64,000 nucleotides of DNA from positions 1,121,893-1,185,892 of the forward strand of contig NZ_BCUR01000001.1 of assembly GCF_003569005.1 (NCBI RefSeq), written 5' to 3'. The position numbers were made by a program, and so were the translations under genes. The notes beneath the pieces were generated by a model, which ran no database searches, was not told where the DNA came from, and worked only from the letters and a program-made list of their open reading frames with translations. This document shows, piece by piece, positions 486 to 64,000 of the stretch. The stretch's first letter is position 1; every line of letters begins with the position of its first letter. This DNA comes from Vibrio superstes (lineage in GTDB: Bacteria > Pseudomonadota > Gammaproteobacteria > Enterobacterales > Vibrionaceae).

Positions 486-905
486 TTATTCAGACGGTAA
501 TCTTTGCTTGAGTTCCAGTAACATCTGAAAAGCACTTTCGCCTGACATCTCGTACGGATTGAAATCTGGTGAGCTTGAGAACTGCATATTGATAAGGGCA
601 GTTAGGTAAGACTCAGGGATGTCTCCCATAGACCAATCACCAAAGACTCTGGTGTGGATCTCTTGGAAATAGAGAATCTGTACATTGTCGTGTCTTTCGT
701 CTTTCAAAATGCGGTTATAGGTCGAGTTCACAGCCTCTCTTGAGCCCTCTAAGCACTGTAAAAAATATTTGTTGTTGTGGCTTAAAAGACCAGTTAAATG
801 ACTCTGTTGATTGAATCTCCTAGAGGTAGTAAGAATGTCATCTAAGGTATGAGAATCACAGGTTGGAGATAGGGTACTGATATAAATTAATCGAGTTAGA
901 ACCAT
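486..905 (-). CDS. Stand-alone BLUF-domain blue-light sensor
   Basis: A short BLUF flavoprotein of about 139 residues, expected to bind FAD and sense blue light. The key residues sit at canonical spacing: Tyr8, Asn32, Gln50, Trp91 and Met93 match the spacing of AppA Tyr21, Asn45, Gln63, Trp104 and Met106. The LEG segment after the Gln and the DERH segment are also typical. There is no fused output domain, only about 40 extra C-terminal residues, so it must signal through a partner protein or its own oligomer. A TTG at 929 and an ATG at 911 are in frame, but AGAAG lies about 8 nt before the ATG at 905, which I prefer. The output partner is unknown and no neighbour suggests one. Confidence 0.9.
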   Translation of the reverse strand: MVLTRLIYISTLSPTCDSHTLDDILTTSRRFNQQSHLTGLLSHNNKYFLQCLEGSREAVNSTYNRILKDERHDNVQILYFQEIHTRVFGDWSMGDIPESYLTALINMQFSSSPDFNPYEMSGESAFQMLLELKQRLPSE

Positions 906-1070
906 AGCCATCACTTCTATTTTTATCAAAAGACATTATCAAATATACTCTATGTCGCTGAAATTCCTAGGTGATCCCCTATGAGTTGTGCAATTGTGAG
1001 CTCGCATCGTGACACAGAAACCATTTCAATCTATTATTCGTTGCCAAATGGCTAGTTCTGGCCAACCTCA

Positions 1071-1126
1071 GAGACAAATCACGATTATCGCTCCGCCGGA
1101 GACAAATTATGATTATCGCTCATTAA
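1071..1126 (+). repeat. Two 28-bp direct repeats before the glucosidase
   Basis: Two adjacent units, 1071-1098 and 1099-1126, share 21 of their first 23 bases. Each starts GAGACAAAT and contains GATTATCGCTC. They end 16 bp before the glucosidase start, so they could be a tandem operator or part of the leader. The function is inferred from position only. Confidence 0.6.
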
Positions 1127-1142
1127 TTTATGGAGCATGATT

Positions 1143-2726
1143 ATGAATACTTGGGTTAAAGATGCGATCGTTTATCAGATCTACCCCCGCAGTTTTAAAG
1201 ACTCAAACAACGACGGCATTGGTGACATCAATGGTGTTCGTTCGAAACTCGATTATCTTCAGCAGTTAGGCATTAATACCCTTTGGTTAAGCCCTGTTTA
1301 CGACTCTCCTTGTGATGACAACGGCTATGATATTCGTAACTATCAGGCCATTCTTGCGGAGTTTGGCACTGTGCAAGACTTCGACTTATTGCTGGAAGAG
1401 TGTCATCAACGGGGAATGAAACTGGTGATGGACTTGGTGATCAACCATTGTTCGGATGAGCATGAGTGGTTTGAGCAATCGAAACAATCAAAGACGGGAC
1501 CCTATGCAGACTATTTCTATTGGGCTGATGAGCCTAATGATTTGAGGTCTGTATTTGGCGGTAGTGCTTGGGAGTATTGTGAGTCTCGCCAGCAATTCTA
1601 TCTACATACCTTTAGTAAAAAACAGCCAGACCTTAATTGGGAATGTTCTGTTCTGGTTTCTGAAATTGAGCAGATGGTAGATTGGTGGCTAGACAAAGGC
1701 GTGGATGGCTTTCGAGTTGATGCGATTTCGTTTTTGGATAAATCAGGTATCGAAGATGCGCCGAATGGCACCTTTGCCACAGAAGCGTGCGTGAATAGAC
1801 CGAAGGGACATGCACATCTGCGTAAACTAATGAGCAAGATACACACTCGTGATGTTCTCAGTGTTGGAGAGATCAATGCCAGAGATACCGGTGAGTTGTT
1901 GGATTATGTGCTCCCTTCACGTAACGAGTTTCAAATGGCTATTGTATTCACGCCACCAGAAATCGAAGTATTTCATGAGAACCTGAACCGATATTACAAG
2001 GAGCAGGTTAAGACTCGTATTGAGGTTCAAAGGCAAGGCGCTTGGAATGCAAATTTCCTCTCTAATCATGATAAGCCGAGACAAGTATCGCTTTACGGTG
2101 ATGACGGAGAGTTTTGGTTACAGTCAGCAAAAGCGTTAGCCGTACTTAACCTTACTCAGCATGGCACCCCTTATCTATACCAAGGTGAGGAAATAGGGAT
2201 GACTAACTGCTATTTTGATGAGATCTCTGATTATGATGACATTGATACTGTTGCCAAATATCAAGAGCAGCTAGAGCTTGGTTTATCAAGTGATGACGCC
2301 TTGGCACTGGTAAGTAAAGCCAGCCGAGACACCAGTCGGACGCCAATGCAGTGGGATGACTCAACCTTTGCCGGTTTCAGTGAAGCAACGCCTTGGCTGA
2401 AGGTCAATGAGAACAAGAGCACGATAAACGTAAAAGCTCAGCAGCAGGATACTGAGTCTATATTGCACTTTTACCAACAGTTGATTGAATTGCGACTCAG
2501 CTCTGAGACGCTAAAAACGGGAGAGACGTCGCTGTACGATACAGAGGATGCGATTATTGCGTATCAACGTGAGAGTGATAGCTGCACCTATTCAGTGATT
2601 GTCAACCTAAGCCCTGCAAGGGTATCGGCGCCTAATCTTCCTGAACTTCAATCAGCGGAGTTGTTACTCGGAGAGGAGCTAAACGAGTCTCTAGCGCCAT
2701 ACTCTTTTGCGATATATAAAAGCTAG
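1143..2726 (+). CDS. GH13 alpha-glucosidase (oligo-1,6-glucosidase / trehalose-6-phosphate hydrolase type)
   Basis: A cytoplasmic GH13 glucosidase of about 527 residues with no signal peptide. It opens with the family hallmark DAIVYQIYPRSFKDSN. The catalytic set is visible: nucleophile Asp193 in GFRVDAISF, acid/base Glu243 in VGEIN, and transition-state Asp310 in SNHDKPR. The RTPMQWDDS segment is typical of the oligo-1,6-glucosidase, dextran glucosidase and TreC group. Which substrate it uses (isomaltose, maltose, sucrose or trehalose-6-P) cannot be settled from sequence. ATGs occur at 1137 and 1143; GGAG at 1132-1135 gives 7-nt spacing to the second, so 1143 is chosen. No transporter gene is adjacent. 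A hairpin follows the stop. Confidence 0.9.
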   Translation: MNTWVKDAIVYQIYPRSFKDSNNDGIGDINGVRSKLDYLQQLGINTLWLSPVYDSPCDDNGYDIRNYQAILAEFGTVQDFDLLLEECHQRGMKLVMDLVINHCSDEHEWFEQSKQSKTGPYADYFYWADEPNDLRSVFGGSAWEYCESRQQFYLHTFSKKQPDLNWECSVLVSEIEQMVDWWLDKGVDGFRVDAISFLDKSGIEDAPNGTFATEACVNRPKGHAHLRKLMSKIHTRDVLSVGEINARDTGELLDYVLPSRNEFQMAIVFTPPEIEVFHENLNRYYKEQVKTRIEVQRQGAWNANFLSNHDKPRQVSLYGDDGEFWLQSAKALAVLNLTQHGTPYLYQGEEIGMTNCYFDEISDYDDIDTVAKYQEQLELGLSSDDALALVSKASRDTSRTPMQWDDSTFAGFSEATPWLKVNENKSTINVKAQQQDTESILHFYQQLIELRLSSETLKTGETSLYDTEDAIIAYQRESDSCTYSVIVNLSPARVSAPNLPELQSAELLLGEELNESLAPYSFAIYKS

Positions 2727-2733
2727 AGCAGTG

Positions 2734-2771
2734 AAATTAGCGTTAAACATTAATACGTTTAACGCTAGTTT
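2734..2771 (+). terminator. Hairpin after the glucosidase gene
   Basis: Perfect 11-bp arms, TAGCGTTAAAC and GTTTAACGCTA, flank an 8-nt loop. Only GTTT follows, so it is a weak rho-independent terminator or an mRNA 3'-end stabiliser. Confidence 0.6.
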
Positions 2772-3175
2772 CAAGTTCAGCTACACTCACTCATCATAGC
2801 TTCATGCCTGAAACCTTGTTACAAAACAACTAACTGGGCGCAACTGTCCCCTCTCATTGAATTAAGCAATAAAGCCGTTTGGATGTGAAAGATGCGATAG
2901 CGTTCAGAAATATCTATAAAGTAGTTTGTAGAATGAACAATGAAAAAAGATGACAATAAAGCTTTACAGCCTGCTTTATTAGTGTACTATCCACTTTCAC
3001 TCTGTGATTCAGAGTTATTAATGAAATATAAAGTAAAAGCAAAACCCTCAGTATTCCATCGTTATTGTTGTCATCCTCAGTGTTTCCTTAGCTTCATCGT
3101 AGCATTCAATAATTCAAGATTTCAGCGTCTCGCAATATTGCGAAAATAAATGATTTAAAAAATAAGGGACAAATT
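2772..3175 (+). other. Leader region of the cold-shock gene
   Basis: About 400 bp without a gene I trust. A 69-codon ORF (2940-3149) reads through it, but the product is low-complexity and Cys/Phe-rich and has no recognisable domain. Long 5' untranslated regions that control translation by temperature are known for cspA-family mRNAs, so this is most likely the cold-shock leader and its promoter. Confidence 0.5.
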
Positions 3176-3388
3176 ATGTCTAACAAAACTACTGGTATCG
3201 TAAAATGGTTTAACGAAGAGAAAGGTTTCGGCTTTTTGACTCAAGACAACGGCGGTGCAGACGTATTCGTTCACTTCCGTGCTATCGCATCTGAAGGTTT
3301 CAAGACTCTAGCTGAAGGCCAAAAAGTGTCTTTCACTGTAGAGCAAGGTCAAAAAGGCCTTCAAGCTGCTGACGTAGTAGCTATCTAA
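3176..3388 (+). CDS. CspA-family cold-shock protein
   Basis: A 70-residue single cold-shock domain that binds single-stranded RNA and DNA and acts as an RNA chaperone. It carries RNP1 (KGFGFL, about residues 16-21) and RNP2 (VFVHF, about 30-34), preceded by the family start [10 protein letters not shown]. The whole protein is the domain, at the usual CspA length. GGGA lies about 7 nt before the ATG. Whether it is induced by cold or by stationary phase cannot be told from the coding sequence, but a long upstream leader fits post-transcriptional control. Confidence 0.97.
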
Positions 3389-9800: not shown

Positions 9801-9890
9801 TTCGACCCTCATAAATGATAACGACTTAGCCTTGAAAGTTAAGCGTAGACCGAATTTAGAGGGCTTTCAAAAGCGATTTGTACCGATAGA

Positions 9891-53020: not shown

Positions 53021-54702
53021 ACATCTGTAAAGTGAAATCCATAAATGAGAGTGAGGCCAATAATCCCTGTCATTACAAGGTAATAAATGGTGGGAATAAT
53101 TGTCTTGCGCAGGGTGGCGCCCTCGCGACCTAAAAGGCCCACCGTAGCCGATGCCGCTACCACATTATGAATCGCTATCATGTTGCCAGCCGCCGCGCCA
53201 ACCGCTTGTAATGCCACCACTACCGCGCTAGAGATAGTTAACGTCTGCGCTACCTCAAATTGGAACTGGCTAAACATCATGTTTGATACTGTATTAGAGC
53301 CTGCAATAAAGGCTCCCAGCGCACCTACGGTAGCACTAAGCATAGGGAAGGCAGAGCCAACAATATCAGCGGCAAAATTTGCTGTTGTGACAGGCATGCT
53401 GGCTAGGTCGGCACCGTTAACGCCAGAGTTAATAAAGATTCGCACCATAGGGATGGTGAACAACAAGACAAAGCCTGCACCTATGAGTGTTTTGCTTGAT
53501 TCTCCAAAAGCGCTTGCTAATGGCTTTAGATTTCCAGATTGTAGAATGACCGCGAGTAGGGCAACCAAGACTAAGATGCCTCCCGGAAGGTAGAGCGGTT
53601 GAATCGCTGTGCTAATGCCTGTCTCACCAAGGATATTACCGAAGGATAGGCTGACGCTCTTTAGCATGCCTTTGAATTCAGGGCTAACGCGACTCCCCAC
53701 AAGGATCACCGCGAGCATTACATAAGGTGCCCACGCCTTTGTTAAACTCATTGGCTTGCCAGTGGTCTTTTGATTGAGTTCAATCTTTAGAGAGCCTAAC
53801 CATTCTGCTGGCCACTTGTCTTCACTCTCAAAATCCCATTGCTTTTTGGGTACTAGGAATCCCTTCTTCGCCGCCGTAACGACAATGGCTAAGCCAAGCA
53901 AACCGCCAATCAATGATGGGAACTCAGCTCCAAGAAATACGCCTGTTAATGCATAAGGAATGGTAAACGCAAAGCCTGCAAATAGGGCAAACGGCAGAAT
54001 ATCTAATCCCTCTTTCCAACTCTTATTTTTACCAAAGAAGCGAGTGAGCATCATCGCCATTAGCACAGGAATAAGAGTGCCTACTACCGCGTGTATCAGA
54101 GCAACACTTGAGGTGATTTGCTGTAGATAGGCATCCCAAGTAGAGCCGTGGGCGATAAGTGATTCACCTATGTTGTGCGTATCTAGTCCTTTGTTGACAC
54201 CTACGATGATAGGCGTGCCAACCGCGCCAAATGACACAGGCGTAGACTGGATCATCATCCCCATAAGGACCGCAGCCAAGGCAGGAAAACCAATAGCGAC
54301 TAGCAGAGGCGCGGCAATAGCCGCAGGCGTACCAAAGCCCGATGCGCCCTCGATGAATGAGCCGAAACACCATGCAATGATGATGGCTTGTATACGGCGA
54401 TCGCTGGAGATATCTGTAAAGCCGTTACGAATGACTGTTATGGCACCGGTGTGCTTTAGAGTGTTGAGTAAGAAGATGGCACCGAAGACAATCCAAAGCA
54501 CCGACACCGTAATGCCAAGCCCTTGAAAGATAGAAGCAAGCACCCTGTTTACAGACATGTCCCAGAACGCTAGCGCTATTACCACAGTTAATGTAAATGC
54601 CACGGGCATGGCTTTTTTAGCGGGCCAGTTGAGGCCGACCAGTAATATCGCCGCCACAACGATTGGCGAGAAGGCCAACAAGGCCAATAATGTTTCACTC
54701 AT
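53008..54702 (-). CDS. lctP: L-lactate permease (LctP family)
   Basis: A 564-residue inner-membrane permease of the LctP/GlcA family with about twelve to fourteen helices. Signature segments include [19 protein letters not shown] and [16 protein letters not shown] near residues 115-170 and [17 protein letters not shown] near 470. It imports L- and D-lactate with protons. GAGGATG precedes the ATG. It is first in the lactate operon, and a LysR gene is divergent 163 bp upstream. Confidence 0.95.
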
Positions 54703-54846
54703 GGGTACATCCTCGTACTCTGATTTTATTTTGGCTGTACTGCTACATCAGCTCAGGAAAGTGTTTTTGTAATGGTTTTGTTAAGCGAGTGTGAATTTAG
54801 CCCTTTATTTTTTATGGATATAGCGAAATAATGAAAATGATTAATT

Positions 54847-54856
54847 CCAAAATTGG
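54847..54856. promoter_or_regulatory. Short palindrome between the lactate operon and a LysR gene
   Basis: CCAAAATTGG lies 9 bp before the LysR start codon. LysR proteins often bind such dyads near their own promoters, but the site is short and the call tentative. Confidence 0.3.
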
Positions 54857-54865
54857 CATAATAAA

Positions 54866-55765
54866 ATGCGAGCAGATGATCTTATTCTCTTTTCTCAGGT
54901 CATAGAACTGGGGAGCTTTAGTAAGGTGGCAGAGGAAAATAACCTTACAAATTCGGTGGTTAGCAAACGAATCGCCCGATTAGAGGAGGATGTAGGCGCG
55001 CAGTTATTATATCGAACAACGCGTAAATTGAGTCTGACGGAAGCAGGGAAGACTTTGTGGCATAAAGCAAAAAATGTGACTCAAGCCACCCAAGAAGCAA
55101 AGGACGCAGTTTCTGGTTTTGGAGAAAGTATCTCTGGACATCTTAAAATGTCAGTCCCCACGATATCGGGGGATTTGATCTTGGCAGATGCGATTGCTGA
55201 GTTCTGCAACTTGCATCCAGGGCTATCAGTAGACATGTCTTTAGATAACCGATTTGTGGACCTGATTTCTGGTGGATACGACTTGGTGATCCGTACCGGT
55301 TATCTTGAAGACTCAAGCTTGATTGCTCGCCATATCATTGATTCTCAATGGGTTGTTTGTGCTTCTCCCTCCTACATAGCCAAGCATGGCAAGCCAATTA
55401 AGCCCATTGACCTCACTGAGCACAACTGCTTGCAATATGCCTACCAAACTACAGGCGCGAGTGAGTGGGAGTTTAAGGGAGATAAGGGCAACTACATTGT
55501 GAAGGTCTCAGGAAGTTTCTCTACCAACAATGCTACTGCGCTGCGCAAGTCTGCGTTAGGGGGGCATGGTATAGCCTATGTGCCGAGGTGTTTGGTTTAT
55601 CATGATTTTCGTAACGGGCAACTGGTAGATATTTTTCCTGATTTGGTGGGAAAGAAATTAGGCATATATGCTGTGTACCCCTTTACGAGGCAGCCACCAA
55701 ACAGGGTCAAGCTATTGATAGAGCACATTAGGCAGCGTTACTTGACCATCTCGCACTATTTTTAG
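54866..55765 (+). CDS. LysR-family regulator divergent from the lactate operon
   Basis: A 299-residue LysR regulator. The helix-turn-helix is at about 1-60 (GSFSKVAEENNLTNSVVSKRIARLE), with the effector domain after. It is divergent from lctP-lldD-dld, and no other candidate regulator is nearby, so control of lactate use is the leading inference; other bacteria use GntR-type LldR or other regulators for this. The downstream LysR gene is separated by a terminator. Confidence 0.92.
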   Translation: MRADDLILFSQVIELGSFSKVAEENNLTNSVVSKRIARLEEDVGAQLLYRTTRKLSLTEAGKTLWHKAKNVTQATQEAKDAVSGFGESISGHLKMSVPTISGDLILADAIAEFCNLHPGLSVDMSLDNRFVDLISGGYDLVIRTGYLEDSSLIARHIIDSQWVVCASPSYIAKHGKPIKPIDLTEHNCLQYAYQTTGASEWEFKGDKGNYIVKVSGSFSTNNATALRKSALGGHGIAYVPRCLVYHDFRNGQLVDIFPDLVGKKLGIYAVYPFTRQPPNRVKLLIEHIRQRYLTISHYF

Positions 55766-55820
55766 CCACACAAAGCTGGCTTACATTGTCCAGTGTCGGT
55801 AACAAGCAAAGATGGGTTAT

Positions 55821-55848
55821 ACTTCTGTTTTTAAACAAGAAGTTTTTA
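55821..55848 (+). terminator. Intrinsic terminator between two LysR genes
   Basis: ACTTCTGTTT and AAAC(A)AGAAGT pair with one bulge and are followed by TTTT. It ends only 13 nt before the next ATG, so the second LysR gene must start its transcript close by or depend on read-through. Confidence 0.65.
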
Positions 55849-55861
55849 GGTAGGGGCCTGC

Positions 55862-56809
55862 ATGTCACTGACCACACAACTGGCGCTGTTTCGAGACGTG
55901 GTGCAGCAAGGCTCTTTTTCCAAGGCCGCTGCTCTGCATGATATGGATAACTCATCGCTGTCGAAACAGATCAAGAAGCTAGAGGTGACCCTTGGCGTAC
56001 AGTTACTTAACCGCTCAACACGCTCGTTCTCCATTACCTCGGCTGGGGAGGAGATCCTAGAGCAAACACACACCCTGCTTGATACCTTGGCGCACATTCA
56101 TAGCATCGCGGATAGTTATCAATCTGTTCCTAAGGGCTCGCTTCGCATTACCTCACCTATCTTCTTTGGGCAGGAATATCTGCAACCGGTAGTGACTCGA
56201 TTTATGAAACAGTATCCCGATGTTCAGGTCACTCTTTCTTTAGATGATAAACGAGTGGATATCATTGCTGATCACTTTGATCTTGCGTTTCGCATTAGCA
56301 AACTAAGAGAGTCCAATTTGATTGCGAAGAAGATTGCCAACACCAATTTTGCGGTGGTGGCCTCAGAGCAATTTATCGAGCAATACGGAGAGCCAAAAAC
56401 ACCACAACAGCTGTTGGAATTGCCAGCCGTGGTGTACAGCAATGGCAGTGTGACTTTAGATAGGATTCGTATCAGTGAGACTGCTCACTCGACCAACATG
56501 GTAACGCTAAGGATGCAGGGGAATTATAAGGTCAGTGACGTGCGCACTATGATGGGCGCGGTAAAGGATGGCCTAGGCTATGCGCTCATCGACTTGTTTA
56601 ATCTTGACCAACCTATCTCTGAAACTAAGCTGGTGCCACTGCTGACAGATCATAAGCTCTCGACCATGGAGACAGGGATCTACGCCATCTATCCTCACCG
56701 AACACAGACCCTGCTGGTGAGTGAATTTATCCAATATGTCCAGCAACACATTGGCTCTCCGGCACTATGGGAAAGCCATATCCCAAACTACAAAGACTTA
56801 TATCAATAA
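55862..56809 (+). CDS. LysR-family transcriptional regulator
   Basis: A 315-residue LysR regulator with its helix-turn-helix in GSFSKAAALHDMDNSSLSKQIKKLE (about residues 16-40). It is distantly related to the regulator directly upstream, and the two may have arisen by duplication. It precedes the FAD oxidoreductase gene by 168 bp on the same strand, which could be its target. AGGGGCC lies just before the ATG. Confidence 0.9.
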   Translation: MSLTTQLALFRDVVQQGSFSKAAALHDMDNSSLSKQIKKLEVTLGVQLLNRSTRSFSITSAGEEILEQTHTLLDTLAHIHSIADSYQSVPKGSLRITSPIFFGQEYLQPVVTRFMKQYPDVQVTLSLDDKRVDIIADHFDLAFRISKLRESNLIAKKIANTNFAVVASEQFIEQYGEPKTPQQLLELPAVVYSNGSVTLDRIRISETAHSTNMVTLRMQGNYKVSDVRTMMGAVKDGLGYALIDLFNLDQPISETKLVPLLTDHKLSTMETGIYAIYPHRTQTLLVSEFIQYVQQHIGSPALWESHIPNYKDLYQ

Positions 56810-56977
56810 GGCGTTCGCGAAGATCTCTGCGAATACATTAAGATGTTTTACAATGTAACGCACTGACATGGTTCCAATAATCGACTATCGCCTGTAGAGT
56901 ATGCAAAAATTTGGTAGAGAGCTAATTCATCTAGTAAGTCGAATTAGTGTGCATTAAGAATAAAGGATAGATAGGTC

Positions 56978-58438
56978 GTGGCTGAACAAGGGCAAACTTC
57001 GCTCCGTGTTGCTGTAATTGGTGGCGGAATCGCGGGTTCTACGGCAGCGTTACATCTCGCTGAACAAGGTATAGAGGTCACTTTGATTGAACAAAGTGAT
57101 GGCTTAGTCAATGGTCCACCTATCTGTCATCTTCACGCTGGTGGCAACCTTTATCGCGAGATTTCTCAGCAGCAATGTGTAGATCTACTTAAGCAGTCCA
57201 TTGAGACGGTTCGCCTTTTTCCCAATGCGGTTAATGCTCGCCCAACGGTTATTGCGACGCCACTCACTGACAGTAGCGATCCCCAGTCTTTGCTACCTCG
57301 TCTATCCGTTATCCAAGAAAGTTATCAATATTTGGTCGAGCAAGACCCATTGAATTGTGTGCTAGGTGATCCTAAACACTATTACTCTCAATACAGTCGC
57401 GCACAACTAAACGCGCTTCGCGAGAGTGAGCAACCTGAAAATCCATCGAGTCATGATGACTGGATGATTCCGTTCGCTCAGCATGTGGACCTAGATAACC
57501 TCAAATACCCTGTATTGGTGGTTCAAGAGTTTGGTCTTAGCGTTTTTCGTCTGGCAGCCAGTGTTACCCTGACCTTAGAGCAACACCCTAAAGCGCACCT
57601 GATGACAGGATGTCGCTTAGAAGATGCACGCTATGTAAATAATCAATGGCATTTAACTTATCAACTAAAACAGGGTGATAAGGAACAATTAGTCGTAGAC
57701 TATTTGGTCAATTCCACTGGCTATAAAACGGGTACCATTGATGATTTTACCCACCAGTCGCAAAAGCGTTTAGTGGAATTTAAATCCGCATTTATAACGC
57801 ACTGGGAGAATAGTGGCATCCATTGGCCTGAGGTGATCTTTCATGGTGAGCGAGGCACTCCTCAAGGAATGGCACAGCTGACGCCTTACAGCAATGGCTA
57901 CTTTCAAGTCCACGGTATGACTGAGTCCATTACCTTGTTTGATAAGGGCTTAGTTGCAAGCGAAGAGCCAAGTTCACAGCCTAGGTTACCGTTAGAGCTT
58001 GAAGCAAAGATCACTCATGGCTGGCCTGAGTCTGCGATTCAACAGCGCACCCAAAACGCAATAGGGCATATGAGTCAGCATATTCCTACCTTTACGAAGG
58101 CGACTGTGGGTGGGAAACCGCTTTTTGGCGCTCAGCAAATCCCAGGTGAAGACCCAAGGCTACGTGTAGCAGACGTCTCATTTACCGAAAACAACTATGC
58201 GCGTATCGAGTTGGTAAAAGCTTCTTCGGCTTACCAAGCGGCGAGAAAGATCAAAGACCAGTTGCAACGTATACATAGCTCTGAGCAAACGCTAATGGTA
58301 TCGGGTGTCAGTGTCGAGCAGGCTCACCCGAACCTGTCAGCTTTATCTCCTGAAAGAATTGAAGTGCGAGCTAAACAGCTGGCTCGAGATAGGGGGTATC
58401 CTGAAGCTCTGGCGATTCAAACCGGAACTAATAGCTGA
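56978..58438 (+). CDS. FAD-dependent oxidoreductase of unknown substrate
   Basis: A 486-residue protein with a GTG start (AAAGGA about 10 nt upstream). The N-terminal Rossmann motif VAVIGGGIAGSTAALHLAEQ and a Glu about 10 residues later bind FAD, and VDYLVNSTGYKTG at about 250 is a typical second FAD-contact segment. The rest does not match a family I can name; C-terminal residues 400-486 contain a helical region absent from the usual DAO fold. It is a single gene between a LysR gene and a repeat element. Its substrate is not predictable from context. Confidence 0.8.
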   Translation: MAEQGQTSLRVAVIGGGIAGSTAALHLAEQGIEVTLIEQSDGLVNGPPICHLHAGGNLYREISQQQCVDLLKQSIETVRLFPNAVNARPTVIATPLTDSSDPQSLLPRLSVIQESYQYLVEQDPLNCVLGDPKHYYSQYSRAQLNALRESEQPENPSSHDDWMIPFAQHVDLDNLKYPVLVVQEFGLSVFRLAASVTLTLEQHPKAHLMTGCRLEDARYVNNQWHLTYQLKQGDKEQLVVDYLVNSTGYKTGTIDDFTHQSQKRLVEFKSAFITHWENSGIHWPEVIFHGERGTPQGMAQLTPYSNGYFQVHGMTESITLFDKGLVASEEPSSQPRLPLELEAKITHGWPESAIQQRTQNAIGHMSQHIPTFTKATVGGKPLFGAQQIPGEDPRLRVADVSFTENNYARIELVKASSAYQAARKIKDQLQRIHSSEQTLMVSGVSVEQAHPNLSALSPERIEVRAKQLARDRGYPEALAIQTGTNS

Positions 58439-58538
58439 TTGGTGAAAGCATTTAAAGAATTGTTTTACTAACATCCGCTGGACGCATTGACCCTCTCACC
58501 GACATAACATAGAGCGAACTTATAGCTCGCTCTATGTA

Positions 58539-58642
58539 ATACTAATCGTAGTAAATAACGGGTCATCCTAGCTTGTTAAAACACTCGATAACGGCGTTTT
58601 TCCTACCCTATTTCTGACCACACTACTTAATGTGATTGGTAT
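58539..58642 (+). repeat. Palindrome-ended intergenic repeat, copy C (104 bp)
   Basis: Starts ATACTAATC (one change from copy A) and ends GATTGGTAT. It shares GTAGTAAATAAC at the left and CTATTTCTGACCAC-like sequence at the right with copy A. It lies between the FAD oxidoreductase and CMD genes. Confidence 0.78.
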
Positions 58643-58658
58643 ATTTTAGATCGCTGGA

Positions 58659-59210
58659 TTATTTTTTAGACCAAGCAAACTTTTCAAATACCTTGTCTAC
58701 TGGCGTGTGAGCAACATGGTTTACGTAGTTACTGATCACTTTTTGCGAAAGACCAAGGATCACCTCAAGTACCTGCTGCTGACCGTAACCTGCACTAAAG
58801 AATGCCGCTAGGTCTGCTTCTGATACATTGCCACGCTCACGTACTACTGCAAGAGTGAAGTCTTTTAGTGCTTGAAGTTTAAGTGTTGGCATTGCTTCAT
58901 CGTTACGCAGTGCTTCAGTCAGTGCAGGATCAACCTTCATTGAGTGTGCGATACCAGTGTGTGCAGGAACGCAGTAGTGACACTCGTGCTCAACGTTGAT
59001 GGTTTGCCATACAACTGTTAGCTCTTCAGCATCAAACGAGGTGTTAGTGAATTGCTGATGCAATTGCGTGTATGCTGTTAGGATTTGAGGAGATTCAGCC
59101 ATTACCGCGTAAAGACCTGGAACCATACCCATTTGTTTTTGTGCGCCTTCAAGGATTGCTTTGCTTTTCTCAGGTGCTGACTCAACAGTGTGTAGTTTAA
59201 ATTCGCTCAT
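58659..59210 (-). CDS. Carboxymuconolactone decarboxylase/AhpD-fold protein
   Basis: A 183-residue CMD-family protein. The AhpD-like redox motif is complete: Glu-His-Glu-Cys-His-Tyr-Cys-Val-Pro-Ala-His near residues 74-84, giving CxxC plus the downstream His. Such proteins reduce peroxides or act as thiol-dependent reductases. GGAAAGAG lies before the ATG. It follows the DUF2798 gene by 39 bp on the same strand and is probably co-transcribed with it. Motif-bearing sites upstream of the pair and a divergent LysR gene suggest inducible control. Confidence 0.92.
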   Translation of the reverse strand: MSEFKLHTVESAPEKSKAILEGAQKQMGMVPGLYAVMAESPQILTAYTQLHQQFTNTSFDAEELTVVWQTINVEHECHYCVPAHTGIAHSMKVDPALTEALRNDEAMPTLKLQALKDFTLAVVRERGNVSEADLAAFFSAGYGQQQVLEVILGLSQKVISNYVNHVAHTPVDKVFEKFAWSKK

Positions 59211-59249
59211 TTTCTCTTTCCTATTCTCTAACTTATTAACTTTACTTAC

Positions 59250-59495
59250 TTATTTTACTTCTGGCTCTAGTAGAACTTTGGTTACAAACAGGCGAACCAT
59301 CGGTGCTACAAGGGCTAAAACTAACAGTGCAGCTGGCACCATTTGTGACACTGCGGTTAACCATGCATCGAAGAACACACCGTTTGTTGGTAATGTTTTA
59401 GCAACCATGATAGCTGGCATGCTAAGAAGCATAGTAGGTAGAACCATAGAAACCATTAGTGGGTACTGGAACTTACGTGGGAATTTTTTCATCAT
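59250..59495 (-). CDS. DUF2798 membrane protein
   Basis: About 81 residues with two membrane helices (about 12-34 and 48-72), matching the DUF2798 family of unknown role. The reading frame is open to 59564, but AGAGAGAG lies directly before an ATG pair at 59495/59492, and the protein from there (MMKKFPRKFQYP) has a typical short basic N-terminus. It is the first gene of the pair with the CMD gene. Confidence 0.82.
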   Translation of the reverse strand: MMKKFPRKFQYPLMVSMVLPTMLLSMPAIMVAKTLPTNGVFFDAWLTAVSQMVPAALLVLALVAPMVRLFVTKVLLEPEVK

Positions 59496-59560
59496 GCTCT
59501 CTCTTATGCTTAACAGTGATTGGCTAACTGATGGGGCTATATTAGTCCCTATCCTTGAAA

Positions 59561-59605
59561 TCAAAAATAGGCAACATTGAACTTGAATCTTTCATATTTG
59601 AATGA
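59561..59605. promoter_or_regulatory. Pair of operator-like motifs between DUF2798 and LysR genes
   Basis: Site 1 (59561-59580) is TCAAAAATAGGCAACATTGA; site 2 is 59583-59605. Both recur upstream of the DoxX-like gene (61209-61258): site 1 matches its partner at 16 of 20 bases and site 2 matches the complement of its partner at 19 of 23. They lie 66 bp from the DUF2798 start and about 35 bp from the LysR start, as expected for LysR binding. Confidence 0.55.
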
Positions 59606-59640
59606 TTAACTCAGGGGGCAATCCTCAAGGGTGATCAAAT

Positions 59641-60561
59641 ATGAAAGCAAAGGATATCTCCAACCTCTACTTGTTTTGCCAATCTGTCGAGTGCGGCGGT
59701 TTTGCAGCGGCGAGTCTTAAAACTCACGTTTCAGCCCCAACGTTATCAAGGGCTGTGGCAAGTCTTGAAGATAAACTGGGTGAAAAACTGGTACATCGAA
59801 ATGCCAAGCAGTTCCAACTCACGACGGCAGGCGATGAATACTATCAACGCTTCGCTGCTCTATTTATGCAGCTTAATGATGAATGGACACAGCTTTCTAA
59901 CAGTCAGCCAGTATTAACGGGTGAGATCCGAGTATCTTGCCCTGAGCCATTTGCGGATAATTTCCTGCAAAAGATGGCGATTGAATTTATGCAGCTTCAC
60001 CCAGAAGTCTCCGTAACCATTCAATTTAGCGCAGGCACAGAGCGTTTCTTTAATGAGCAGATTGACCTTGCGATTGTGACGACTCCACCTCATGCCAATC
60101 ATTTAGTTCAGCGTCAGTTGTTTGAATCATCATTAATGCTAGCAGCATCGCCAAGCTATATTGAAAAACATGGTCAGCCAAAACGAGCAGAAGAGTTGAT
60201 TAATCATCAGCTACTTTCAGGTAATAACTTGCCATATTGGGAGCTAAAAGAAGATGGCAACGCGATCCGTATTCCTTATCAGCCTCGCTACTCAATCAGC
60301 AGTCTACGTCTAAATATTGACGCGACATTGGCAGGAGCTGGGATCTGTATGATGCCAAGAGCGGCATTTGAAAAGCGTGCAGAAAAAGAAGAGTTAGTAG
60401 AGGTATTGCCAGATGTTGAATACCCAACGGGTAAAGCATTCTTGGTATGGACAGACAGAAAACTGATAGCGACCAGAGTGGTTGCTTTTAGAGACATGAT
60501 TTTTGAGCGTTTTGGGCAATCAACTGAATTTTTGGCTTCGATTAACTCAGAGCGAGATTAG
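59641..60561 (+). CDS. LysR-family regulator, probable controller of the flanking loci
   Basis: A 306-residue LysR regulator with its helix-turn-helix in GGFAAASLKTHVSAPTLSRAVASLE (about residues 18-42). It is divergent from the DUF2798-CMD pair and convergent with the DoxX-like gene. A repeated motif occurs in both promoter regions, so one regulator for both is inferred. GGGTGAT lies about 7 nt before the ATG. Confidence 0.92.
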   Translation: MKAKDISNLYLFCQSVECGGFAAASLKTHVSAPTLSRAVASLEDKLGEKLVHRNAKQFQLTTAGDEYYQRFAALFMQLNDEWTQLSNSQPVLTGEIRVSCPEPFADNFLQKMAIEFMQLHPEVSVTIQFSAGTERFFNEQIDLAIVTTPPHANHLVQRQLFESSLMLAASPSYIEKHGQPKRAEELINHQLLSGNNLPYWELKEDGNAIRIPYQPRYSISSLRLNIDATLAGAGICMMPRAAFEKRAEKEELVEVLPDVEYPTGKAFLVWTDRKLIATRVVAFRDMIFERFGQSTEFLASINSERD

Positions 60562-60582
60562 GGGCTGTATTGATGAAATGAC

Positions 60583-60619
60583 AAACGCCAGACTAGACGA
60601 ACTAATCTGGCGTTTTTTT
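60583..60619. terminator. Bidirectional intrinsic terminator
   Basis: AAACGCCAGA and TCTGGCGTTT form a perfect 10-bp stem; A and T runs on either side serve the convergent LysR and DoxX-like genes. Confidence 0.9.
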
Positions 60620-60632
60620 GTTACTTTAACGA

Positions 60633-61148
60633 TTACTTCTTACGAAAATATAGGAATGCATTCAACCAAGCTAATCCAAGAATAATCAGCGTCATTACCG
60701 GTGGCTTTGACTGAAGTGGCAATACTTCCGCTGGCACACTTGGCAATAGGTGAACATACACCGCAACAATCATAATTGCCGTTGTTAATAGTGTTGATAG
60801 CTGCATTGCTTTATCTTTAATCGATGTTGCTAGTGCCTTATAACCCATCATCACCACAAGCAGTAGTAAACCGGCAAAAATTTCACCTAATTGCCCCATC
60901 CATCGAGACAAGGTAGGGAAAGGCAGTTCACTCAGCGCAATCTGTTTTGCAAACATAGTAGTGAACGGGTCAAAGAATTTAACTGTTCCCGCCATAACCA
61001 TAAAGGCACCAAGCAGTCCTGTTAGGATTTTCTGAACCTTAGTCCCAATACTATCGGTTTTGTCATAGCTGCGAACTAAAAAAATACCAGTGATTAGCAG
61101 CATTGTGCCGATAAGAGATAACTCAAGAATTAGTTGTGATGTGCTCAT
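60633..61148 (-). CDS. DoxX-like membrane protein
   Basis: A 171-residue inner-membrane protein with four or five helices. The GTVKFFDPFTTMFAKQIALSEL segment between helices and the LGEIFAGLLLLVVMMG helix are reminiscent of DoxX-type proteins. Function unknown; DoxX relatives are linked to redox and quinone metabolism. Motif copies upstream (61209-61258) resemble those before the DUF2798-CMD pair, implying co-regulation. Confidence 0.7.
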   Translation of the reverse strand: MSTSQLILELSLIGTMLLITGIFLVRSYDKTDSIGTKVQKILTGLLGAFMVMAGTVKFFDPFTTMFAKQIALSELPFPTLSRWMGQLGEIFAGLLLLVVMMGYKALATSIKDKAMQLSTLLTTAIMIVAVYVHLLPSVPAEVLPLQSKPPVMTLIILGLAWLNAFLYFRKK

Positions 61149-61208
61149 AGCAAACCTTCATTACGTGTTAGCAAGTTGATGTCGCTATTCTACGAAACAC
61201 AAACGAAT

Positions 61209-61258
61209 TCAAAAATAGACAGGTTTGATTGATATCCATTCAAAAATGCAAGATTGAA
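61209..61258. promoter_or_regulatory. Pair of operator-like motifs before the DoxX-like gene
   Basis: Site 1 (61209-61228) is TCAAAAATAGACAGGTTTGA; site 2 (61236-61258) contains ATTCAA and TTGAA arms around a 10-bp spacer. Both resemble the sites at 59561-59605. They lie about 60-110 bp upstream of the start codon. Confidence 0.55.
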
Positions 61259-61387
61259 TTGTATATGGATTTGCCTCCTAGACCACTTTGGGGGGAGAAG
61301 TGAGCTAGGAACATCATTTTTGAAAGTCTGCCAATCCTGCTTTTGAGCACCCTTTAATCAATCCTCACTAAGCATCAACTCCAGCGC

Positions 61388-61978
61388 TTAATCCACCAAC
61401 TCAATGTTAAGACTTTCGAGTAAATTCAGCGCCTCAAAACGAGAGAATTTAGCTCCAGATAAACGGTTATTGTTTAAGTCGATGCCAAGGTTTGATGACT
61501 CAGTGAAGTCGACTTGTTCTAGGTTGGTGCGCATAAATAGGCTGTGTCTAAAGTCACAGTAGGTCATGCTTGATTGGGAAAAATCTCCCTCTCGGAAGTC
61601 TGCATCGTGCAACTTACATTCTGTGATGGTCAGTTCTTGGAGGGTAAGTCCAAACCAAGAGCAGTCGTTGAGGATGCAGTGTTTGAAGGACAGTTCGCAG
61701 TCGGCATGGAAGCTAGGCCAGTGGGCTGTCGTCCAGTCTATACCGACCAACTTACTCTCGTTAAAAGCAACCTGATACCAACGGCTGTTAGGGATCTTGA
61801 TAAGGCTAAGGTTACAGCGAACAAATGAGCAATTAATGAAACGGCAATTGGAAAGCTTGGCTCCAGAAAAATCGCAGTCTACAAACTCACATTCTTCAAA
61901 TTCAATATTACTGAACTCTTCATAAGCGAACGTCTGCTTAGAAAAGGATTTGTCGTAATATTGCTCGTTATTTTTCAT
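61388..61978 (-). CDS. Pentapeptide-repeat protein
   Basis: A 196-residue protein built of pentapeptide repeats (A/C-D/N-L/F-X-X) across most of its length, for example FEECEFVDCDFSGAKLSNCRF. This folds as a right-handed quadrilateral helix. Qnr and MfpA proteins of this fold protect gyrase from quinolones, but this protein is shorter than Qnr (about 218 residues) and fits a broad family of unproven role with IDLN...AKFS near the end. It lies 26 bp after the MFS transporter gene on the same strand and is probably co-transcribed with it. Confidence 0.88.
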   Translation of the reverse strand: MKNNEQYYDKSFSKQTFAYEEFSNIEFEECEFVDCDFSGAKLSNCRFINCSFVRCNLSLIKIPNSRWYQVAFNESKLVGIDWTTAHWPSFHADCELSFKHCILNDCSWFGLTLQELTITECKLHDADFREGDFSQSSMTYCDFRHSLFMRTNLEQVDFTESSNLGIDLNNNRLSGAKFSRFEALNLLESLNIELVD

Positions 61979-62004
61979 TCCGTAATCCGTATATAGGTCA
62001 TTGT

Positions 62005-63201
62005 TTAGCAGGCGTTTGATAGCTGCAGATGCCCATGCCTTAGATAAATTCTATGCATGGCAAGGCTGGCGATAATCAATACCATAGACAATATCATGAA
62101 GCCCAGGCTAATCGCATCGTAGTAGCTGAGTATTGCGATCATGACGTAGCTAATACTCTGTGAAAAGGTAGAGAAAAGCTTGAGACCGCCATCAATTCGA
62201 CCACGATAGTTGTTATCTACTTCTAAGTTCATCTTATAAGTTCGCGCGATGCGATTGTAGCTAGAGAAGAAGCCAACTAACAAGGTCAATCCCACTATCA
62301 TCTGAGGTGAAGGTGACAGTGCCATAGCTAATACGAGCAATCCAACGCTGAATAGACACGCCATCATCGCCTTCTCCGTGGCAAATTTGCTAAGCAATAC
62401 CTTGACGAAGAAGCCACACATCAATGCCCCAAGGCCATAACTTAGGCTCCAACTTGCAAACCAAGAGGCTGAAATGACTTGCTCGCTAAAGTGTATTGGG
62501 ATCAGTTTAGAGAGATAGGTGAGCGCTGGGTATCCAAGACAAGAGAGTGCCAAGAAGGCATAGAATCTTGGTTGCTTAGAAAATACCTTCTTACTTTCAA
62601 TCAGTTGTGATGAAAACGAAGGCGAGGATTCTTGTCTAGGGCGACGATGATAAGTGGTAAGAGAAAAGCTAAGCAGTGACAGTGTGGATGCGACTGCGGC
62701 AAAGGTCGCAAATTGAGCCATTCCCCAGAGCTCTAGGAAGACAATACCTAATGAACCCGCACCTAGTGAAGTGGCTTGGAATACAATCTCTTGGTAACTG
62801 GAGTAGGAGGCATACTCATGCTGTTGGTAATTCTCTTGGGTAAAGGCGTTGTTGGTGCACCAGGCAAGATCGTTGGTTAACCAGAATACCAGCTGGGCAA
62901 AGGCCAAAACCCAGACGGAGATAGCCGGCTCTTGGGAAAATAAAAGCAATATCAATGCTGTCGTTACCTGGATACCTTGCACCAGCATTAAGATGGCTTT
63001 ACGAGAATAGCGATCAATGAAGGTGGCAAATATTGGGGTTAAGAAAAACGATGACAGTGTGCAGGCTAGAGTAGTCAGAGCAACGAAAAGCCCCATGTCG
63101 CCTTGTTGCAGTAGAAACCAGGGCAGAGCCATCATGACTAAGCCTGACGATATTCCATCCCAAAATAACCCGCTTAGGTGTGGTAAGAATTTTTTGTTCA
63201 T
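62005..63201 (-). CDS. MFS transporter
   Basis: About 398 residues with twelve predicted helices. The layout resembles MFS_3-type exporters (macrolide Mef, EntS-like), with FATFIDRYSRKAILMLVQG as the helix 2-3 loop motif. Export of a small molecule is likely; the substrate is unknown. The frame is open to 63231, but AAGGAAC lies 7 nt before the ATG at 63201. A pentapeptide-repeat gene follows and a LysR gene is divergent. Confidence 0.9.
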   Translation of the reverse strand: MNKKFLPHLSGLFWDGISSGLVMMALPWFLLQQGDMGLFVALTTLACTLSSFFLTPIFATFIDRYSRKAILMLVQGIQVTTALILLLFSQEPAISVWVLAFAQLVFWLTNDLAWCTNNAFTQENYQQHEYASYSSYQEIVFQATSLGAGSLGIVFLELWGMAQFATFAAVASTLSLLSFSLTTYHRRPRQESSPSFSSQLIESKKVFSKQPRFYAFLALSCLGYPALTYLSKLIPIHFSEQVISASWFASWSLSYGLGALMCGFFVKVLLSKFATEKAMMACLFSVGLLVLAMALSPSPQMIVGLTLLVGFFSSYNRIARTYKMNLEVDNNYRGRIDGGLKLFSTFSQSISYVMIAILSYYDAISLGFMILSMVLIIASLAMHRIYLRHGHLQLSNAC

Positions 63202-63240
63202 TGTTGTTCCTTGCAAGTCCATTTGCCACAAGCTTAATAG

Positions 63241-63256
63241 TTAAAGTTAACTTTAA
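63241..63256. promoter_or_regulatory. Perfect 16-bp palindrome between MFS and LysR genes
   Basis: TTAAAGTTAACTTTAA is its own complement and lies 40 bp before the MFS start. Close by, a TAAGT..ATGCTTATT sequence occurs twice, at 63254-63269 and 63320-63334. These are candidate binding sites for the divergent LysR protein. Confidence 0.5.
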
Positions 63257-63344
63257 GTCAATGCTTATTTCGTCTGTTTTTGGGACAAGAGAAAATAGCA
63301 ATAACTGTGTTATTATTGATAAGTGATGCTTATTAGGTGGGACT

Positions 63345-64000
63345 ATGGCAAAAGACTTAGCGGCTAATCTAGATCTTAATTTATTGCGTGTGTTTGTGGT
63401 GCTGTTTCAAGAGAAGAACACTCGTCGTGCGGCAGAAAGGCTGCATGTTACCCAGCCTGCGGTAAGTCAGTCTCTAAAGAAACTCCGTCACCACTTTGAT
63501 GACCCTTTGTTCGTGAAGGTGACGGGTGGACTAGCTGCTTCAGGTTACGCTGAGCGGCTATATGATGTTGTGGCTCCAAACCTAGAAGTTCTGTTTAGCG
63601 GTTTGTCGTATCTTGATTCTTTTTCACCACAAGAAGTAACGCAGTCAGTAAGAGTCGCTCTTTCGCCACCTGCCATGATGGCGATATCGGGTTCTTTAAT
63701 TCTTAAATTTAAAGAGTTAGCACCGAATGCAGAACTATCGATAGTATCTTGGTCTGGTCAGACGATAGAAGAACTATCTAACGGCGATACTTTAATAGGG
63801 ATTCATTATGGGGATATTGCTTATCCTAAGAATATTCACCGCCATCAAATCGCTATGTTGACAGCCGGTGTTGCTGTTAGAAAGGGACATCCCTTACTTA
63901 AGGAACAAAAAGTTTTCCAACAGCTAGCAGACTATCCAATAGCCTCACAAATCATCCCCGGTTGGAATGATAAAAAAGTTGTTGCTGCGGAAGTCATGGG
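63345..64000 (+). CDS. LysR-family regulator, cut by the window end
   Basis: The first 218 or so codons of a LysR regulator; no stop occurs before the window ends. The helix-turn-helix is in NTRRAAERLHVTQPAVSQSLKKLR (about residues 24-48), followed by LFVKVTGGLAASGYAERL, which resembles the NodD/SyrM-like start of the effector domain. GGTGGGAC lies about 4 nt before the ATG. It is divergent from the MFS and pentapeptide-repeat genes and probably controls them. Confidence 0.9.
   Translation, partial: MAKDLAANLDLNLLRVFVVLFQEKNTRRAAERLHVTQPAVSQSLKKLRHHFDDPLFVKVTGGLAASGYAERLYDVVAPNLEVLFSGLSYLDSFSPQEVTQSVRVALSPPAMMAISGSLILKFKELAPNAELSIVSWSGQTIEELSNGDTLIGIHYGDIAYPKNIHRHQIAMLTAGVAVRKGHPLLKEQKVFQQLADYPIASQIIPGWNDKKVVAAEVM

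Follow-up and report, generated by a model that had tools for sequence, protein, structure and literature searches.

The question raised by this locus is why two promoter regions, 1.6 kb apart in a 64,000-nucleotide stretch of Vibrio superstes DNA (the window, to which positions refer unless another locus is named), resemble one another. One region (A) lies between a DUF2798-like gene and a LysR-type regulator gene, the other (B) upstream of a DoxX-like gene (Table 1). The initial annotation had recorded four sites in the two regions, with site 1 matching at 16 of 20 bases and site 2, compared as complements, at 19 of 23, and had taken them to mark one small regulon, which, given its AhpD-like and DoxX-like products, was suggested to respond perhaps to quinone or peroxide stress. 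The shared motif is present in both places, and the observation is real and stronger than was first stated. Site 1 of A and B agrees at 17 of 22 bases, in line with the first count, and site 2, as complements, at 18 of 22 in one register and 19 of 22 in the best; the best ungapped segment shared by the two regions scores 16 on the complement and 15 on the same strand, compared with a mean of 9.3 and a maximum of 15 in dinucleotide shuffles (n = 400), none of which reached 16.

The shared sites thus stand, but their reading as four separate sites, with a flip of strand, does not: it is replaced by two copies of one two-site composite operator in the same orientation. A gapless alignment in a single orientation covers 78 columns of the two regions, the -10 element included, and the sites have the same order and spacing relative to the gene downstream of each region. 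Within the window the complement gives the better match for site 2, at 19 of 22 bases compared with 14 of 22 on the same strand; across relatives site 2 is nevertheless close to a dyad, and in A the operator model also finds a match to it on the opposite strand, at 16.3 bits.

Table 1. Positions in the window of the operators, genes and block borders discussed in the text.
Feature	Position	Strand	Basis or remark
Promoter-operator A	59533..59610	-	Precedes DUF2798-CMD, abuts LysR; R1 model 64.6 bits
-10 element of A (TAATATA on - strand)	59538..59544	-	Fixed spacing to site 1, conserved
Site 1 of A (ABS-like, centre about -38.5)	59560..59581	-	Mean pairwise identity 0.84 vs 0.36 in adjacent spacer (diverged copies)
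Site 2 of A (RBS-like dyad, centre about -64.5)	59589..59604	.	Alignment of copies
Promoter-operator B	61181..61258	-	Precedes DoxX-like gene; R1 model 59.2 bits
-10 element of B (TAGAATA on - strand)	61186..61192	-	Alignment of copies
Site 1 of B	61208..61229	-	Alignment of copies
Site 2 of B (dyad)	61237..61252	.	Alignment of copies
LysR-type regulator (306 aa), predicted to act on both operators	59641..60561	+	Pfam HTH_1 E 4e-15, LysR_substrate E 7e-31
Small DUF2798-like protein (81 aa), first in divergent unit	59250..59495	-	PF11391 E 0.012
CMD/AhpD-like protein (183 aa), second gene of unit	58659..59210	-	TIGR01926 peroxidase-related; PDB 6e8l AhpD E 1.7e-30
DoxX-like membrane protein (171 aa)	60633..61148	-	DoxX_2 in relatives; AF2 model pLDDT 84
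Homologous block, unrelated flanks	58647..61293	.	Single blastn alignment each, 8/15 named loci
Degenerate right end of mobile unit (consensus CCTAGACCGTTTTGGGGCA)	61277..61293	+	Homology with other-genera copies stops about here

Read on the minus strand, both promoters run from the site 2 dyad through site 1 and a variable 15-bp spacer to a predicted -10 box, TAATAT at 59539-59544 in A and TAGAAT at 61187-61192 in B. Counted from this conserved box, taken as -12 to -7 (so that the start site is a predicted one), site 1 spans -28 to -49 and site 2 spans -57 to -72, in A and B alike. The layout published for LTTRs has an RBS near -65 and an ABS near -35 (PMC11602165). As judged from the sequence, the window offers a divergent target, a dyad near -65 and a second site near -35, and both regions are predicted to carry the usual LysR ABS/RBS operator layout. 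In its divergent pair, in the places of its two sites and in its probable autorepression, the locus resembles the LysR-type divergent regulons as described in the available part of that account; it differs from them in having a second full composite operator at another promoter 1.6 kb away, and in that site 1 is the better conserved half.

The initial annotation had proposed comparison of related Vibrio as a check, with lack of conservation between species counting against the regulon. The footprints have been kept in different species, and within the genus the operator follows the presence of the LysR gene; both can be read directly from the DNA. In the alignment of 40 copies from LysR-linked loci, from which the operator model was built using sequence only, 16 of the 78 columns are invariant. 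Among diverged copies (12 of A, 9 of B) the mean pairwise identity for A and B, respectively, is 0.84 and 0.84 in site 1, 0.74 and 0.69 in site 2, 0.78 and 0.65 in the -10 element, 0.62 and 0.51 in the gap between the sites, and 0.36 and 0.32 in the spacer. In the V. superstes genome there are only two strong sites, those of the window (64.6 and 59.2 bits), the next scoring 16.3 bits. A simpler consensus, TTCAAAAATNNNNANNTTGA with up to two mismatches, was too loose for a genome-wide search: it gave 134 matches, and its reversed control 58.

Of 227 Vibrio genomes, 26 have a match to the LysR protein at E ≤ 1e-60; neighbours were mapped in 29 loci of the genus and 16 named loci, some genomes being in both sets. 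An operator of at least 41 bits is present in all 26 LysR-positive genomes, a figure that is partly by construction, since the model was trained on LysR-linked loci, and in 1 of the 201 LysR-negative genomes, a figure that is not. In a genus scan with stricter filters, 27 genomes (the 26 plus G258) together have 56 sites that reach 41 bits, the next site having 26.3 bits. In G258, the sole exception, an orphan operator precedes a truncated DoxX gene, no LysR match being found within the stretch fetched; by eye, the upstream gene that these adjoin is the same as in G005. Five sites held out of the model, and likewise free of its construction, lie upstream of DoxX genes (G179, G258) or of a repeat protein (G007, G008, G126), the site in G179 serving a second DoxX gene 4–5 kb from its LysR. 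The repeat protein has, by eye, a signal-peptide-like start, followed by repeats of about 26 residues with the core EKTGGGFTYDEDEQRTSERFAYLDPS. It thus appears that other genes join the regulon in some species.

The repeat proteins behind this operator (L127:3662-4168, L128:3013-3363 and L130:4619-5002) are made up of near-identical repeats, and that of L127 has no Pfam family at E ≤ 1e-5; relatives in the V. superstes genome (C1:693912, C4:1369461) are without a strong operator. In favour of the regulon, DUF2798 with its operator is followed by DoxX on one strand in G145 (L133) and in one Photobacterium rosenbergii locus (L071). No such operator was recognised in G100 (L037; LysR 50% identical), and in V. 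amylolyticus (L053, L072; LysR 64% identical) no A operator, only a weak site-2-like match of 12.8 bits at the start of its own LysR gene.

The position of the LysR start is also informative. In nine Vibrio genomes with a short A region of 87–88 bp (L034, L036, L047-L052, L055), and in both P. rosenbergii loci (L065, L071), the LysR start codon is within site 2. Because the start lies in site 2 in many relatives, and beside it in the window, LysR is predicted to repress its own gene. In L034, L036, L047, L065 and similar loci, where LysR starts in the operator dyad, no Shine-Dalgarno sequence is obvious by eye, and the LysR message of these loci is possibly leaderless or has a very short leader.

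It might be argued that the sites are bound by another regulator, LysR being a carried-along neighbour. Co-inheritance is to be expected from linkage on one small block, and the binding of LysR is something that we infer; against this, 200 of the 201 LysR-negative genomes have no site that reaches 41 bits, sites off the block (in G007 and G008, and at the second DoxX of G179) occur in LysR-positive genomes only, apart from the decayed locus of G258, and the geometry is that of a LysR operator, all of which makes such a regulator quite improbable. The gapless alignment of A and B, extending to the -10 element, could also have arisen had B been a duplicate of A, the likeness then reflecting duplication and not shared regulation. 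This seems a very remote alternative, as among diverged copies site 1 is 84% identical and the adjacent spacer only 32–36%, in A and B separately; moreover, had selection preserved an old duplication, the two promoters would still be co-regulated. The reading in which both promoters answer to LysR is thus supported.

The explanation that we favour, with good though not full confidence, is that a LysR regulon controlling a thiol/electrophile-stress module has been moved by a compact integrative element. LysR would bind, probably as a tetramer, across the two adjacent sites at each of the two promoters, the dyad near -65 anchoring it and the second site near -38 overlapping a weak -35 region; a tetramer is the typical LTTR binding form, according to the available part of one account (PMC7382281). 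Upon a switch of its effector domain, probably by cysteine oxidation or alkylation or by an electrophilic ligand, LysR would activate DUF2798-CMD and, 1.6 kb away, the DoxX-like gene, and via site 2 of operator A it would repress its own gene. The products, an AhpD-like enzyme and two membrane proteins, may form a small thiol/electrophile-stress module, and the set would travel as cargo of an integrative element of about 3.4 kb, some copies of which encode their own tyrosine recombinase of about 205 residues; the window copy would have lost the recombinase and the left end. The binding, activation, autorepression, signal and movement in this scheme are what we infer from the sequence.

The assignment of the regulator itself is clear, with an N-terminal HTH_1 and a C-terminal LysR_substrate domain, both above the gathering score. 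Its residues Cys13, Cys100 and Cys236 are invariant in 15 aligned members of the family, one of them at 50% identity, and nine other LysRs of the same genome have no cysteine at these positions. Its closest solved relatives include PDB 3szp (164.8 bits by profile), 3t1b and 3hhg, which have LysR-family titles and of which we take the first two to be AphB and the third to be a CrgA-type LysR. In the alignments compared, however, the invariant cysteines are not shared with these AphB and CrgA-type proteins, and the AphB-type redox cysteine has no counterpart at the equivalent position. Together with the AhpD-type motif of the CMD protein, the family-specific cysteines fit with thiol/electrophile stress, and sensing of thiols or electrophiles by LysR is the reading that we favour, at about even confidence.

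The target products are less readily classified. The CMD protein scores 56.8 bits with TIGR01926, below the cut-off of 81.8, and has no Pfam match, but has an AhpD-type CxxC...H motif, CHYCVPAH in all 12 of the copies listed. In V. lentus-type loci no CMD match was found near DUF2798, and the three-gene set is thus not universal. The DUF2798-like protein of the window, with 16 bits, is below the PF11391 gathering score of 23.5; the family is nevertheless found at E ≤ 0.05 in 12 of 16 aligned members, the best being 2e-4. For the DoxX-like protein, DoxX_2 (PF13564) is found in 15 of 17 members at E ≤ 0.5 (best 0.0011), the window protein being below the gathering score (11.4 vs 26.3 bits) and having its own best Pfam match, also below cut-off, in DUF3185 (E 7e-4). 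The best structural match of its AF2 model is NACHO/TMEM35A, presumably DoxX-like as well (Z 13.3, rmsd 2.2 over 120 residues, next 9.9), although for a helical bundle a Z of 13 can be chance, and a Foldseek search of the PDB had no match at E ≤ 0.001. Of the 227 genomes, 28 have DoxX relatives at E ≤ 1e-10: 25 of the 26 LysR-positive ones (all but G126), G258 with its fragment, and two with distant relatives (G123 and G251; 35–37%).

The name CMD, and the haloacid-dehalogenase-like genes near LysR or DoxX in the more distant loci L131, L132 and L134, might suggest that the regulon serves the catabolism of aromatic or halogenated compounds and not stress defence. We consider this somewhat unlikely, as the nearest relatives of the CMD protein are AhpD-type, peroxidase-related proteins that have the CxxC...H motif and the window block is without a haloacid-dehalogenase-like hydrolase.

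A role in stress defence has precedents among systems with AhpD-like proteins. RclR is a regulator of the AraC family. In the available part of the work on RclR-RclX of Pseudomonas aeruginosa, AhpD-like RclX has a role in HOCl/HOSCN defence; as here, a dedicated regulator adjoins the AhpD-like gene, but RclR is not called a LysR there and no DUF2798 or DoxX partner is described (PMC7950407). The allicin-resistance islands of Pseudomonas PfAR-1 carry ahpD within horizontally acquired redox gene sets, and the recombinase-linked loci considered below similarly have DsbA-, OYE- and AhpC-like genes; by contrast, the gene content of the islands is otherwise different, and the part of that report available describes no LysR/operator pair (PMC7119367). 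A search of a limited open-access collection gave no paper on LysR together with DUF2798.

How the set came to its place in the window is suggested by its borders. When positions 54501-64000 are compared with 15 named loci, alignment is confined to 58647-61308, and in 8 of the 15 it consists of one alignment of 2605–2670 bp with 86.7–88.7% DNA identity. Copies with unrelated flanks occur in Shewanella sp. 1CM18E, Photobacterium pectinilyticum, Grimontia celer and other Vibrio, LysR being 94–95% identical in the first three and 79–86% in V. maritimus CAIM 1455, V. lentus and Vibrio sp. RE86. The bounded block is directly visible in these alignments, and the LysR/DUF2798-CMD/DoxX-like set most likely forms cargo moved among different marine bacteria. 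The right-end consensus is found with at most one mismatch in 11 of the 15 loci (8 distinct copies), each distinct copy continuing, by eye, into a different flank; the window has four mismatches, and 2 of the 15 have no match within five. Of 13 loci, 10 (8 distinct copies) have a left-end motif with no more than 4 mismatches in 22 positions, and the window copy has no recognisable left end and no recombinase remnant. One near match to the end motif within LysR of L208, together with a few that fell in further genes, was taken as chance.

In L057, the block shared with each of L058, L062 and L068 is about 740 bp longer, and the addition encodes a tyrosine recombinase of about 205 residues (Pfam Phage_integrase E 8e-20); its frame is open in L057 and L058 but broken in L062 and L068, and the window has no such gene. 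A recombinase gene inside the block, as in these four loci, is what characterises a tyrosine-recombinase integrative element. Close matches are open in G021 and G044 (97%), have a stop in G271 and G178, and are in two pieces in G059 and G148; relatives at E ≤ 1e-10 occur in 105 of the 227 genomes. By eye, in 30 recombinase loci, the stop codon is followed by a GCCCC end motif in 13 and by TGTCCA in 8. G001 has a sister unit of about 6.6 kb with matching end motifs at both borders, in which the recombinase accompanies a different LysR-headed operon with, by Pfam, a divergent LysR and genes for Fe-dependent alcohol dehydrogenase, Dabb, thioesterase, aldehyde dehydrogenase and alcohol dehydrogenase. 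Other relatives stand beside DsbA-, flavodoxin-fold-, OYE- and AhpC-like genes with LysR or HxlR regulators (Pfam), their borders being putative: G253 (at 9884) and G153 (at 3280, just past a putative TetR gene) have one candidate right-end-like match each, and none was found in G251.

In G153 (652-3290) a recombinase, a flavodoxin-fold gene and the putative TetR gene, for which Pfam gives nothing at E ≤ 1e-5, are followed by the right-end-like motif; at about 2.6 kb, this may be a still smaller element. In V. superstes itself, a recombinase relative (60%; G000:C1:1334269-1334841, L216) lies beside type I restriction-modification genes (HsdM).

That these borders are not those of an element, the block having spread by homologous or illegitimate recombination with the recombinase gene as an unrelated passenger, is unlikely. 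It would accord with the window copy being without recombinase and left end, other copies being broken or deleted there, with the right ends of three other candidate elements being putative, and with the failure to find an empty site with both flanks: the joined flanks of five insertions gave no flank-to-flank match, the junction being crossed by at most about 14 bases, in a search that scored two candidates per genome and so may have missed some. It accords less well with a recombinase inside the shared block of four loci, with end motifs recurring at both borders, and with G001, where the recombinase and both end motifs surround different cargo.

On the view that the block is an element, it may have preferred targets. 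The DNA forming the right flank of the G059 copy directly follows GGGGCA in 7 of 11 aligned loci of other genomes, with, by eye, different DNA before it, which hints at an insertion hotspot; but in only 1 of 9 of these loci checked is a recombinase relative present, and there on the other side. In L227-L240 this flank lies beside what we take to be a DUF1456-like gene, and GGGGCA and different DNA precede it in several genomes.

As tyrosine-recombinase elements, the units proposed here resemble the strand-biased circularizing integrative elements (SEs), GInts, RITs and Tn554, and SEs, which have a 6-bp spacer at their ends, prefer marine gammaproteobacteria; those elements differ, in the available part of the description, in having three or four recombination proteins, with a median SE size of 15.7 kb, compared with one recombinase of about 205 residues and about 3.4 kb here (PMC10214605). 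Membership of the SEs or GInts was rejected, as the four core genes were not seen and, by eye, the L057/L058 block has one recombinase-like ORF. Among the titles and starts of abstracts listed from a limited open-access collection, none matched small recombinase elements in Vibrio.

More generally, and tentatively, compact elements of about 3–7 kb with a single tyrosine recombinase of about 200 residues may move "portable regulons" in Vibrionaceae and relatives, and the LysR subgroup with three invariant cysteines may be a new thiol-based switch; we hold this broader proposal at somewhat under even confidence. If true, a stress-enzyme operon would bring along the divergent regulator and the operators that belong to it, and its control would reach a new host intact. 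The locus would then be a complete small regulon, with one regulator, two operators findable with one model and three targets, and would illustrate how regulation can pass between genera as one unit. Given how common the recombinase relatives are, such units may offer marine bacteria a more general way of exchanging stress genes that bring their own control.

The surroundings of the block in the window deserve brief comment. Outside it, to the right, 61388-61978 (minus strand) encodes a pentapeptide-repeat protein, the likeness of which to the Qnr type is far below the cut-off (56.7 vs 240 bits). Directly to the left of the block (54866-58438) are two further LysR genes and a gene for an FAD-dependent oxidoreductase.
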